Positions 466-56,804 of a stretch of 64,000 bases of DNA are shown piece after piece. The notes beneath the pieces were generated by a model, which made no database searches, had not been told where the DNA came from, and saw only the letters and a program-made list of their open reading frames with translations. The position numbers and the translations under genes are program-made. Source of the DNA: Bacillus spizizenii TU-B-10 (GTDB lineage Bacteria; Bacillota; Bacilli; Bacillales; Bacillaceae); NCBI RefSeq assembly GCF_000227465.1, contig NC_016047.1, forward strand, positions 1,964,857-2,028,856, read 5' to 3'. Numbering within the stretch: the stretch's first letter is position 1; every line of letters begins with the position of its first letter.

Positions 466-1794
466 CTATTGGCCAGGAACGGAATTTTCTGCGTTGACGG
501 CGCCCGCTCCGTAAACATTCGGATCTTCATCTTTCCATTTGTCCGTGCCGTTTTTCAAAAGCTCTTTCACTTCATCAGGTGTAAGATCCGGATTTTGCTG
601 AAGGATTAAAGCTGCAATTCCTGCACAGATCGGTGTTGCCATCGATGTTCCTGACATTGTAAAATACTGAGATCCTACACGGCTTGATTTTTGAAGCTTA
701 TCGATATAAGAATTGGGAGAGCGCAGGGAAATAATATTAACACCCGGCGCTAAAATATCGGGCTTTTCTTTCCCGTACACTGTCGGCCCGCGGCTTGAGA
801 AGGAAGCGACCGTATCATCATCGCTGTTTGCGGTATTGTTATCGTCAAGGGCACCTACTGTAATCACCTTTTCGCTCACGCCCGGGCTTGCAATGGTTTG
901 TGGATCAGGCCCTGAGTTTCCGGCAGCGACACAGACGACAATCCCTGCGTTCCACGCTTCTTCAACCGCTCTGACTAACGGGTCTTCTTGTTCATTATCA
1001 TATCGAAGCGCATCGCCACCGAGCGACATACTGATAATATCAATCGGTTCATTCGGGTTGTCCTCATTGTATTGAATACACCACTCTACACCTTCAATAA
1101 TATCAGCTAACGTTCCCGAACCTTGCTTGTTCAAAACCTTCACACCGATTAGATTGGCTTCCGGTGCAGGCCCGCGGTATTGGCCAGAAGAGGATGCGCC
1201 GCTGCTTGCAACATCACCTGCACAGTGTGTGCCATGACCATTATCATCATACGGTTCTGTTTTTTGATTGACCATGTCCGCGAATCCGATAATTCTGCCT
1301 TCTAAATCAGGATGCGGGTAGATTCCTGTATCGACAACAGCGACAGTAACACCTTTTCCAGTCAGGGTCTGCCCGTTTCTGACGACTTCCTTCGCGTGGC
1401 TTGCTTCGGTTGCCGTGTCCAGTAGCGCTTTGACTTCGCGGTTTAAATACACTTTGCGGATATCACTGCATTCAGAAAGAAGGGAATGTAACGCTGAAGG
1501 GGTCACCTCGGCGCTGCAGCAATTGATTTTATTGAATCGGCTTTTTAACTTGCTGCGTTTTTCTTTTTGCAGTACCTCTCCAGCCATTTGACAGCCGGTC
1601 TCGTGACAGCCTTCTTCAAATTCAATAATGACTGACATTTTTTTTCTGTTTTTCAATTTGGTTTCGAAAAACTGATGCAAGAAGCAAGGAGTCCATTTGA
1701 AGGGCTTGTAAAGCTGCAAGACGCTTTCCCGTAACGGCCAATCTAGCTTATGAGCATTTGCTCTCACCATTTGTACCATAGAGTACCCAAACAT
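466..1794 (-). CDS. aprX: Subtilisin-like intracellular serine protease AprX
   Basis: This is a peptidase S8 family protein of 442 residues. The catalytic triad is visible as D155 (VVDTG), H187 (NGHGTH) and S384 (SGTSMA). There is no signal peptide, consistent with an intracellular enzyme. The first 140 residues form an N-terminal extension with Cys-rich patches. I chose the ATG at 1794 because AGGAGG lies just upstream, rather than the earlier in-frame codon at 1821. The gene is divergent from a small WYL-like gene, and a LexA-type box lies between them at 1951-1964. I recall aprX being listed in the LexA regulon, but whether that box serves aprX cannot be told here. Confidence 0.95.
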   Translation of the reverse strand: MFGYSMVQMVRANAHKLDWPLRESVLQLYKPFKWTPCFLHQFFETKLKNRKKMSVIIEFEEGCHETGCQMAGEVLQKEKRSKLKSRFNKINCCSAEVTPSALHSLLSECSDIRKVYLNREVKALLDTATEASHAKEVVRNGQTLTGKGVTVAVVDTGIYPHPDLEGRIIGFADMVNQKTEPYDDNGHGTHCAGDVASSGASSSGQYRGPAPEANLIGVKVLNKQGSGTLADIIEGVEWCIQYNEDNPNEPIDIISMSLGGDALRYDNEQEDPLVRAVEEAWNAGIVVCVAAGNSGPDPQTIASPGVSEKVITVGALDDNNTANSDDDTVASFSSRGPTVYGKEKPDILAPGVNIISLRSPNSYIDKLQKSSRVGSQYFTMSGTSMATPICAGIAALILQQNPDLTPDEVKELLKNGTDKWKDEDPNVYGAGAVNAENSVPGQ

Positions 1795-1943: not shown

Positions 1944-1973
1944 TTGAAAAGGAACGTTTGTTCGTATTATAAT
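1944..1973 (+). promoter_or_regulatory. SigA promoter with an embedded LexA (SOS) box
   Basis: TTGAAA at 1944-1949 and TATAAT at 1968-1973 are 18 bp apart. The spacer contains GGAACGTTTGTTCG at 1951-1964, a perfect GAAC-N4-GTTC core of the B. subtilis LexA/DinR box. It lies 46 bp upstream of the WYL-like gene and about 157 bp upstream of aprX on the other strand. Confidence 0.7.
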
Positions 1974-2009
1974 AATGTCATATTAAACTGGCAAAGGGAG
2001 AGCAGCTGT

Positions 2010-2243
2010 ATGAATTTCTTCTTTCATCGGTCTTTGGAAAGCCAAATACCAATTAGCATTATATATATGAAGAAAGACGGAACGATTAGTAAAAGAACAA
2101 TTATTGTAAGACAGAAAAGCCAAACGCAAATCAAAGCATTTTGTTTTTCGAAACAACAGATCAGAACGTTTTTGTTGGATTCGATCCTCTCCTGTGACTT
2201 TGTGAGAACAAATAAACAAAACCTCTATTTGGCAGACAGATAA
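2010..2243 (+). CDS. Small WYL-like protein, 77 aa, candidate SOS gene
   Basis: The protein begins with MNFFFHRSLES, followed by a compact beta-rich segment whose pattern (IPISIIYMKKDGTIS, RTIIV, a middle Ser-Lys-Gln stretch) resembles a lone WYL domain, the ligand-sensing module of many bacterial regulators. It has no DNA-binding domain. GGGAG lies 8 to 9 bases ahead of the ATG at 2010; a longer frame from 1944 lacks a good ribosome site and would start inside the promoter. The promoter carries a LexA box, so damage induction is inferred. The WYL assignment is by eye. Confidence 0.6.
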   Translation: MNFFFHRSLESQIPISIIYMKKDGTISKRTIIVRQKSQTQIKAFCFSKQQIRTFLLDSILSCDFVRTNKQNLYLADR

Positions 2244-40038: not shown

Positions 40039-40758
40039 TTATTTATTAACAGAAATCGAAACGTTATTTCCTGAAACAGAAACCTTTGCGAAATCCTGTG
40101 TATCTACCACAGGAGTGACGGCTTTATTGTCGATTGTAATGTTGTTAAAAGATGTCGAAAAGGTTGCTTTGATGGCATTACGCTGACTTTCATACGAAAC
40201 AGCCGCGGTAGCAAGTGTTTTCCATTTTGAAATCGTGCCGATGTTGGTTCCTTGGATTTCTGTGATAATCCGTCCGGTATAACCATCATTGTTCGTTCCC
40301 CAAAGAGTCATGCGTGTATTGCCGTTCAAATTTTTATAAATTGTCATTTGGACTGTGCTTCCAGGGCGGAAGCCTTTATTGTATGTGAATTTGTCTTTTC
40401 CTTCGATATACGTTTCTTCATTTTTGGCACCAACCTTCATGAGGGGCTTCCAGACGTTGTATTGTTTGCTGTACTGGAGCCCGATGTCTGCCTCAGTTCC
40501 GCTTGTTGCCCTGAAGCCTGAATAAATATAAGGCGTAGAGACCGAGTCATCATGTTTTACGGTGTCGGGAAGCTTGATTTTAGCTGTGAAAACGGCGCCA
40601 GTACTGTTCAGATAGGCGCGGCCGCCGATGCCTTTAGGCAGCTGGGTGGCTGCTTTTGCGACCTGAGTGTCTGCCGCGGGCAACCCTGGAATACCCGCTG
40701 AAAGTGTTCCGAAAAGAACTGCTGTTCCTACTGTACTTGCAATCAATACTTTTTTCAT
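40039..40758 (-). CDS. yncM: Secreted protein YncM
   Basis: From ATG 40758 (AGGGGGA upstream) the protein has 239 residues with a classic signal peptide (MKKVLIAS, hydrophobic core, cleavage near AKA). The mature part is beta-rich with no cysteines ([29 protein letters not shown]). A start at 40791 adding 11 residues is the common database choice. The protein is abundant in B. subtilis culture medium by reputation; its role is unknown. Confidence 0.88.
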
Positions 40759-40940
40759 CAAAATTCCCCCTTTTAATAGTGGTTTCGTCATTCATTATAC
40801 CTTATTTTGGAACTGGATTTATGTATATCAATCGACAAAATATTTCATTTCACCAATCAGTTTCATGTTGGATGGTTTATGGGACGAAACGGCTCCTCCA
40901 ATTTGAAAACTATATACATTTATTAGATGAAAGGGTTAGC

Positions 40941-56047: not shown

Positions 56048-56665
56048 TTAATGGACGGTTCTGAACACGCCAATCACTTTCCCTAGAATGCTGACATTCT
56101 GCAAGATGATAGGTTCCATCGTTGGGTTTTCAGGCTGTAAGCGAATGTGAGTATCCTCTTTATAGAAACGTTTTACCGTAGCTTCATCATCTTCTGTCAT
56201 CGCAACTACAATTTCCCCGTTGTTCGCTGTATTTTGCTGTTTAACGATGACATAATCCTTATCGAGAATACCAGCATCAATCATACTGTCTCCCATAATC
56301 TCCAGCATAAACACATGCTCGTCCGGAGGAACCATACGGTCAGGAAGCGGAAAATATTCTTCAATATTTTCTACTGCTGTAATAGGAGATCCCGCCGTGA
56401 CTTTCCCGATGACCGGTACATTAACGACCTGACTTTGCGGAATGTCTACTTCTTCATCAAGTATTTCTATTGCTCTAGGTTTTGTCGGATCCCGTCTGAT
56501 CAGCCCTTTTGTTTCCAGACGGGCCAAATGGCCGTGGACAGTTGAGCTGGACGCAAGCCCAACAGCCTCTCCGATTTCTCTCACGGAAGGCGGATATCCT
56601 TTTGATTTAACCTCTGCTTTAATAAACCGGAGGATATCAAGTTGCCTTTTTGATAGCTTCGTCAT
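56048..56665 (-). CDS. lexA: SOS repressor LexA (DinR)
   Basis: This 205-residue protein has an N-terminal winged helix (to about residue 65) and a C-terminal self-cleavage domain. Cleavage is at A91-G92 with catalytic S127 and K165. It represses SOS genes through boxes in the intergenic region to yneA. I chose ATG 56665 with GAGGTGCG upstream rather than the longer frame. Confidence 0.98.
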
Positions 56666-56723
56666 TTTTCGCACCTCAAAACGTCGATTTTAAGAAGATT
56701 ATAGCATGATTTTCCTTACAGTA

Positions 56724-56804
56724 CAAACATAGGTTCGAAAAAAACAATTGACAGAAACGTTTGTTCGTATATACTGAAATTATAAAAAAGCGAACAAACA
56801 TTCC
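56724..56804. promoter_or_regulatory. lexA/yneA divergent control region with three LexA boxes
   Basis: The boxes are CAAACATAGGTTCG (56724-56737), GAAACGTTTGTTCG (56754-56767) and CGAACAAACATTCC (56791-56804). The yneA promoter TTGACA (56748-56753) and TATACT (56770-56775), with a 16-bp spacer, encloses the middle box. The -10 of lexA lies near the first box. Confidence 0.9.

Follow-up and report, generated by a model that had tools for sequence, protein, structure and literature searches.

A solitary WYL-domain microprotein of Bacillus spizizenii and its relatives as a candidate SOS gene with a conserved LexA-type operator

WYL domains are mostly found behind a helix-turn-helix (HTH) domain (excerpts of PMC6789036). 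PafBC of the mycobacterial damage response binds single-stranded DNA (ssDNA) via its WYL domains; joint mutation of R211 and R214 in PafB abolished this binding, and R181, R204 and R208 also mattered (excerpts of PMC11804915). In the WYL domain of DdPif1, residues R464, R491, R495, R498 and R501 were named, from a model, as probable ssDNA contacts (excerpts of PMC9964779). The small protein YolD was assigned in earlier reports to the WYL superfamily and placed in SOS operons (excerpts of PMC4012209 and PMC6511836), and for the YqjW-type complex three variants of the small subunit are known from a survey of bacterial polymerases published in 2026 (excerpts of PMC12926913); a term search of the text of this survey did not find "WYL". 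The protease gene aprX is listed together with lexA in a LexA-controlled SOS module of the B. subtilis network (excerpts of PMC2749860).

Some members of the family considered here are labelled in public records as WYL domain-containing proteins or transcriptional regulators, so the WYL domain as such is not new. In searches of the open-access literature, no description of solitary WYL proteins as a conserved LexA-controlled family was found.

The stretch of DNA analysed (below, the window) comprises 64,000 nucleotides of the B. spizizenii TU-B-10 genome and contains the following features.

466 to 1794, minus strand: aprX, encoding an S8 protease and diverging from the WYL gene; by locus comparison, the box probably does not belong to it
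1944 to 1949, plus strand: -35 hexamer TTGAAA, with the -10 hexamer 11/12 consensus matches, spacer 18 nt
1951 to 1964, plus strand: LexA-type operator GGAACGTTTGTTCG in the promoter spacer between TTGAAA and TATAAT, perfect core, kept upstream of homologues
1966 to 1994, minus strand: TTGCCA-17-TATAAT, a promoter-like match that points towards aprX and overlaps the -10 region (promoter scan)
1968 to 1973, plus strand: -10 hexamer TATAAT (promoter scan)
2010 to 2243, plus strand: predicted 77-aa solitary WYL-domain (Sm/SH3 barrel) microprotein, ATG at 2010, stop codon at 2241-2243 (profile and model)
56048 to 56674, minus strand: lexA, the presumed repressor, in the same window
56807 (start), plus strand: yneA-like gene beyond lexA, about 55 kb from the WYL gene

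An initial annotation had proposed a gene of 77 residues starting at 2010 and preceded by a TTGAAA-18-TATAAT promoter that holds a perfect GAAC-N4-GTTC, and both were borne out. The product of ORF 2010-2243 is MNFFFHRSLESQIPISIIYMKKDGTISKRTIIVRQKSQTQIKAFCFSKQQIRTFLLDSILSCDFVRTNKQNLYLADR (77 aa), 1944-2243 being a longer TTG-started frame of the same ORF, and the perfect core GAACGTTTGTTC occupies 1952-1963 within a 14-mer at 1951-1964. A consensus promoter match alone is weak evidence, since 1750-2550 contains six promoter-like sites where shuffles average 2.8. A single operator site is likewise weak, because the 4.2-Mb genome holds 33 perfect cores, fewer than the 66 matches of a reversed control pattern. 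The window contains two perfect cores, at 1952-1963 and at 40716; the latter (40716-40727) lies inside the start region of a secreted-looking ORF on the minus strand (40039-40791). For internal comparison, three LexA near-boxes (7/8) are situated at 56725, 56755 and 56792 between lexA and the yneA-like gene, so that the box at 1952-1963 matches the consensus no less closely than these sites. The gene order of the window is aprX, a poly-gamma-glutamate hydrolase gene, miaA, lexA and yneA, which places the genome in the B. subtilis group.

No inverted repeat was found in 1944-2243 at the settings used, and no terminator was predicted in 1750-2550. The stop codon is followed at once by a stem at 2246-2273 (z -2.5 for the stretch 2240-2300), which has no T run and is a possible weak terminator. 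A coding gene under purifying selection is expected to show substitutions biased to codon position 3, and those among eight subtilis-group orthologues are skewed in this way, from 3/1/10 up to 21/13/41; the changed codons of the same orthologues comprise 10-22 synonymous and 4-29 non-synonymous ones.

Matches to the microprotein (E<=0.01) were found in 88 of 100 relative genomes. A profile search at E<=1e-5 gave matches in 149 of 199 genomes of the order and in 106 of 200 genomes of the class, where the weakest matches include frames of ~320 aa resembling ordinary WYL regulators; genome contigs searched with a profile of a narrower family alignment gave 23 loci. The 275 loci collected contain 274 family genes (frames of <=165 aa), 186 of them distinct, and the 183 with enough upstream DNA and E<1e-8 were reduced to 128 representatives at 70% identity.

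Within 150 bp upstream of these 128 members, GAACN4GTTC is perfect in 82 cases, matches at 7/8 positions in 37 and at fewer in 9, which gives 119 with at least 7/8; shuffles gave 0.13% for perfect boxes and 3.3% for the 7/8 class. The control consisted of 651 other ORFs of at least 100 aa from loci L155-L275, after removal of LexA, YolD, polymerase and WYL matches and of starts less than 300 bp from a family gene, and yielded 5 perfect boxes and 25 with 7/8 (30 with at least 7/8). An earlier count over 70 loci, which left out four remnant or weak ones, found 56 perfect boxes, 12 with 7/8 and 2 with 6/8. Because the box is kept upstream of homologues (82/128 perfect against 5/651 in other ORFs), the site is far above chance, and a chance box was rejected on this conservation and this control. 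The nine members below 7/8 include two fragments (L203, L002) and two loci with a LexA-type DNA-binding domain (DBD) behind the gene (L246, L252). The box is also kept in L271 and L272, which we guess to be Listeria genomes. With promoters aligned on the box, and as a count without a shuffle baseline, a TATAAT-like hexamer (>=5/6) begins 0-3 nt past the box in 51 of the 82 perfect-box promoters. Such a box adjoining the predicted -10 hexamer has the geometry of a repressor site.

The SOS link proposed in the initial annotation is stronger than could be known from the single stretch of DNA, because box and gene occur together across Bacilli. The gene is a strong candidate for membership of the SOS response on this comparative evidence, and we infer that LexA binds at it and that DNA damage induces it.

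The query alone matched Pfam WYL with E 0.018 and 15.5 bits, below the cut-off of 21.8 bits, and NCBIfam gave no match for the 77-aa protein. Among 20 aligned family members, 19 matched Pfam WYL at E<=1 (best 2.8e-6), and the relatives L215 and L150 exceed the cut-off. When the family profile was compared with solved structures, the best match was the WYL domain of a Pif1-type helicase, 8bnv (8.6e-9), and 8bns, 7tb5, BrxR and PafBC were also matched. An AlphaFold2 model based on 20 sequences (pLDDT 89.1, pTM 0.73) consists of a helix and five strands; every Foldseek match at E<=0.001, nine in all, is to a WYL protein (BrxR, PafBC, CapW), and the predicted model together with Foldseek indicates an Sm-like SH3 barrel. 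No wHTH or WCX part is attached: the longest of the 128 representatives has at most 96 aa, a maximum that applies after frames of >165 aa had been left out. Profile and model support the view that the 77-aa product is a solitary WYL domain. This part of the initial annotation holds at the level of family profile, which matches solved WYL domains, fold and 19 of 20 members, and not for the query alone, which stays under the Pfam cut-off.

The genome of B. spizizenii contains one other WYL match above the cut-off, in a 319-aa frame. Two other assignments were rejected. PADLOC, run on three members for a defence system, returned WYL and RT-associated WYL models only. Membership of the YolD family was dismissed because a Pfam search with 20 members matched 9 families without YolD among them and hhalign gave a probability of 1.7%.

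The protein is strongly basic, with a net charge of +8 (family mean +7.5). Nearly invariant positions are Y19, R29, C45, R/K48, R52, F54 and L60; among the 128 representatives, R29 is found in 127, C45 in 122, R or K at 48 in 117 and R52 in 121. Positions 55 and 58, L55 and S58 in the window protein, are K or R in 62/128 and 13/128, respectively. Counted along the profile alignment, R29, K48 and R52 align with R464, R491 and R495 of the DdPif1 WYL domain, and L55 and S58 with R498 and R501. By motif matching, R498/R501 correspond to R211/R214 of PafB and the kept positions to R181, R204 and R208. Since two of the five ssDNA-contact arginines are mostly absent, ligand sensing is not simply transferable from these proteins, and a groove for nucleic acid or nucleotide, not of the exact PafBC kind, is plausible.

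Neighbouring genes were counted within 2.5 kb in the 113 representatives whose flanks reach 2 kb or more on each side; the profiles used derive from sequences of the family loci themselves (seven YolD, two polymerase, six LexA-type). An SOS-type neighbour was found in 30 of the 113 loci: yolD in 22, lexA or a LexA-type DBD in 12 and a Y-family polymerase in 6. In the other 83 none of the three is present at this distance, which counts against a reading in terms of SOS partners, and in the window none of them stands beside the WYL gene. The 12 LexA-type matches are seven short frames and five full-length lexA genes; the identity of four YolD, three LexA-type and three polymerase genes was confirmed by Pfam. 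Of the 22 loci with yolD, 12 have it on the same strand, overlapping the WYL gene or starting within ~15 nt of its end, and the polymerase comes next in L179, L245 and L250. At least one yolD is present in 188 of 199 genomes; because most genomes carry one or two copies, adjacency by chance is estimated, without random placement, at well under one case.

The order of Psychrobacillus psychrodurans (L152) is box, WYL gene, LexA-type domain, polymerase and YolD. Phage PVJ1 (L309) has the same order, with the core AAACGAATGTTC, one mismatch from perfect, upstream; its operon adjoins a divergent gene annotated as DNA ligase. In L179, WYL, YolD and polymerase genes follow one another beside lexA. 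In L140, L152, L183, L189, L209, L246, L252 and PVJ1, a lone LexA-type domain (frames of 67-92 aa) is encoded directly at the end of the WYL gene, either overlapping or adjoining it. Pfam LexA_DNA_bind was matched by those of L140 (1.2e-20), L152 (1.2e-18) and PVJ1 (3.6e-20), and the others rest on the six-domain profile, which includes L140, L152 and L183. In L038 (495-935, oriented), which is outside the 128 representatives, WYL and LexA-type DBD are fused in one 146-aa frame, these being two overlapping genes elsewhere. Full-length convergent lexA adjoins the WYL gene in L156 and L171. The suggestion of the initial annotation that the free domain could modulate another regulator would fit the LexA-type DBDs that directly follow the gene in several lineages, but yolD is the commoner neighbour.

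The genome of B. spizizenii itself contains two remnants, L002 and L003 (C1:218890-221997 and 279367-282474), each a WYL fragment that continues as a LexA-type DBD near a shortened YolD match, and no intact DBD partner was found there beside a family gene. These remnants, about 60 kb apart, read alike over the 701 bases shown of each.

Some family members are phage-borne. The WYL-like gene of phage Fern comes after a YolD-like gene, and its end is overlapped by a gene annotated as MarR, which matches MarR and not LexA_DNA_bind. The WYL-like proteins of PVJ1 and Fern gave no Pfam match at 0.01. Searches of PHROGs matched phrog_6785, of unknown function (E 1e-12), and phrog_2561, DNA ligase (E 1e-4). 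A recent phage origin of the window gene was rejected: the query matched six phage records (best E 5e-5), its patterns had no relative in viral contigs, and two single-protein viral scans gave 0 and 1 locus.

The ownership of the box was considered by comparison of 30 aprX loci, taken from the 41 genomes with a match among 61 searched; the searches used 466-1797, one codon longer than the ATG start. The WYL gene is upstream of aprX in 12 loci, three of these copies being broken, and the box is at least 7/8 in 12/12, perfect in 10. Among the 18 loci without the gene, one has a 7/8 box and none a perfect one; L286, counted among these 18, holds a faint remnant of the gene. This contrast is partly phylogenetic, because 16 of the 18 come from more distant species, with aprX at most 75% identical. 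In one of these distant species, G003, a WYL gene stands at another locus (L079) and has a perfect box there. With this caveat, aprX was rejected as the owner of the box. As to the earlier suggestion that the two genes share it, the box follows the WYL gene and not aprX; the promoter-like match facing aprX (1994-1966), whose -35 hexamer is lost in some relatives, makes shared control of aprX through the same box possible in B. spizizenii.

In G004, which we take to be B. subtilis 168, the box is intact and the WYL gene is two bases shorter in a TA run, with a truncated frame. The frameshift of this 168-like copy (L013:1459-1689) falls within a run that encodes IIYM elsewhere, and such a run could slip. 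Further broken copies are L017, whose promoter also has no -10 hexamer, and L071, and short copies are L149 and L151. The gene is dispensable, since it is broken in at least three subtilis-group relatives and short in two more. Because it is frameshifted in the presumed strain 168, it is probably invisible in the reference strain and may have been missed, with the LexA site credited to aprX.

The fold and homology, the conserved operator, the purifying selection and the recurrent SOS neighbours, all results of computation, may be joined in the following scheme, for which we infer both ligand and partner. LexA would repress the gene via the operator between -35 and -10, and cleavage of LexA after DNA damage would allow the microprotein to be made. 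A free, strongly basic WYL domain of the Sm fold would most likely act where DNA is damaged, as a small adaptor that binds nucleic acid or nucleotide in a conserved basic groove (R29, K48 and R52, with Y19 and C45). The adaptor would work together with further SOS proteins: the YolD/Y-family polymerase module and also, in certain lineages, a separate LexA-type winged helix. In our opinion, the role of the microprotein is, on balance, probably that of a basic Sm-fold adaptor, induced in the SOS response, that serves translesion synthesis, LexA-type regulation or both.

The adaptor for damage-tolerance machinery is favoured, and next to it we rank a split regulator, in which WYL as a ligand or dimer module and a separate LexA-type DBD, or LexA itself, would adjust the SOS response as a substitute for a one-piece wHTH-WYL protein. 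The lone LexA-type domains at the gene end in seven loci and PVJ1, the 146-aa frame of L038 and the convergent lexA of L156 and L171 argue for it; yet a LexA-type neighbour is rarer than yolD (12/113 against 22/113), L246 and L252 carry the DBD without a good box, and the window genome offers two WYL-DBD remnants and no intact partner, so we regard it as unlikely. Still less likely, in our estimate, is a strictly accessory subunit of a YolD/UvrX-type (Pol V-like) mutasome with no regulatory role. The 22 of 113 loci with yolD nearby, 12 of these 22 in the close same-strand arrangement, and the assignment of YolD itself to the WYL superfamily (excerpts of PMC4012209 and PMC6511836) speak in its favour, but most members, including the window gene, are without yolD nearby, the family is devoid of the N-terminal arm modelled as the polymerase contact of YolD (excerpts of PMC12926913), and hhalign gave a weak match to seven YolD proteins (probability 1.7%, E 0.029, 37 columns).

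That the box is coincidental or belongs to aprX, and that the small ORF is incidental or dying, is largely refuted and very improbable. The 33 perfect cores of the genome, below the control pattern, the broken copies in relatives and the place of aprX in the LexA-controlled SOS module of B. subtilis (excerpts of PMC2749860) would suit it, as would the partly phylogenetic nature of the comparison (16/18 gene-less loci at <=75% aprX identity). Against it, gene and box are kept together across Bacilli, mostly away from aprX, and the box is present in 12/12 loci with the gene and in 1/18 without it. A bolder combination, which we put forward tentatively and consider doubtful as a whole, is a free WYL sensor induced by LexA cleavage that would pair in trans with a LexA-type DBD and the YolD/UvrX module, as a split damage sensor by which the sensing of ssDNA or nucleotides would be coupled to LexA-type control and to mutagenesis, overlooked since the model strain is frameshifted.

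Returning to the microprotein as a probable adaptor, it looks like a real and little-noticed part of the DNA-damage response in many Bacillus-like bacteria, judging from the genomes compared. Should G004 indeed be B. subtilis 168, work on SOS genes in the main Gram-positive model has relied on a strain with a broken WYL gene, and a conserved SOS member may have been missed, its operator being credited to the protease gene next door. The family provides a minimal WYL domain of ~70 residues for working out WYL sensing. Through the operons in which its genes stand with yolD, a Y-family polymerase gene or a lone LexA-type DBD, questions about the Gram-positive Pol V-like complex and about secondary SOS regulators become accessible to direct tests.

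In comparison with known systems, the gene has the same operator type as the LexA-controlled genes of B. subtilis (lexA, yneA and aprX, as listed), and differs from them in being absent from one short list of LexA-controlled genes, given in a glucose-response study, and in the frameshift of its 168-like copy. The YolD family (YqjX, YolD, YozL; PF08863) likewise comprises small SOS-linked WYL-superfamily proteins of Bacillota, which are recurrent neighbours of the microprotein; the N-terminal arm and the divergent barrel belong to YolD, the two stand side by side and their profiles match weakly. PafBC, DriD, BrxR and CapW have the Sm-like barrel in common with the microprotein, whereas the latter is without wHTH and WCX, is under a LexA-type operator and mostly lacks the second ssDNA arginine pair. 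The best profile match is the WYL domain of bacterial Pif1 (8bnv, 8bns; 8.6e-9); unlike it, the microprotein is not fused to a helicase and has mostly lost the equivalents of R498 and R501, but it keeps those of R464, R491 and R495.
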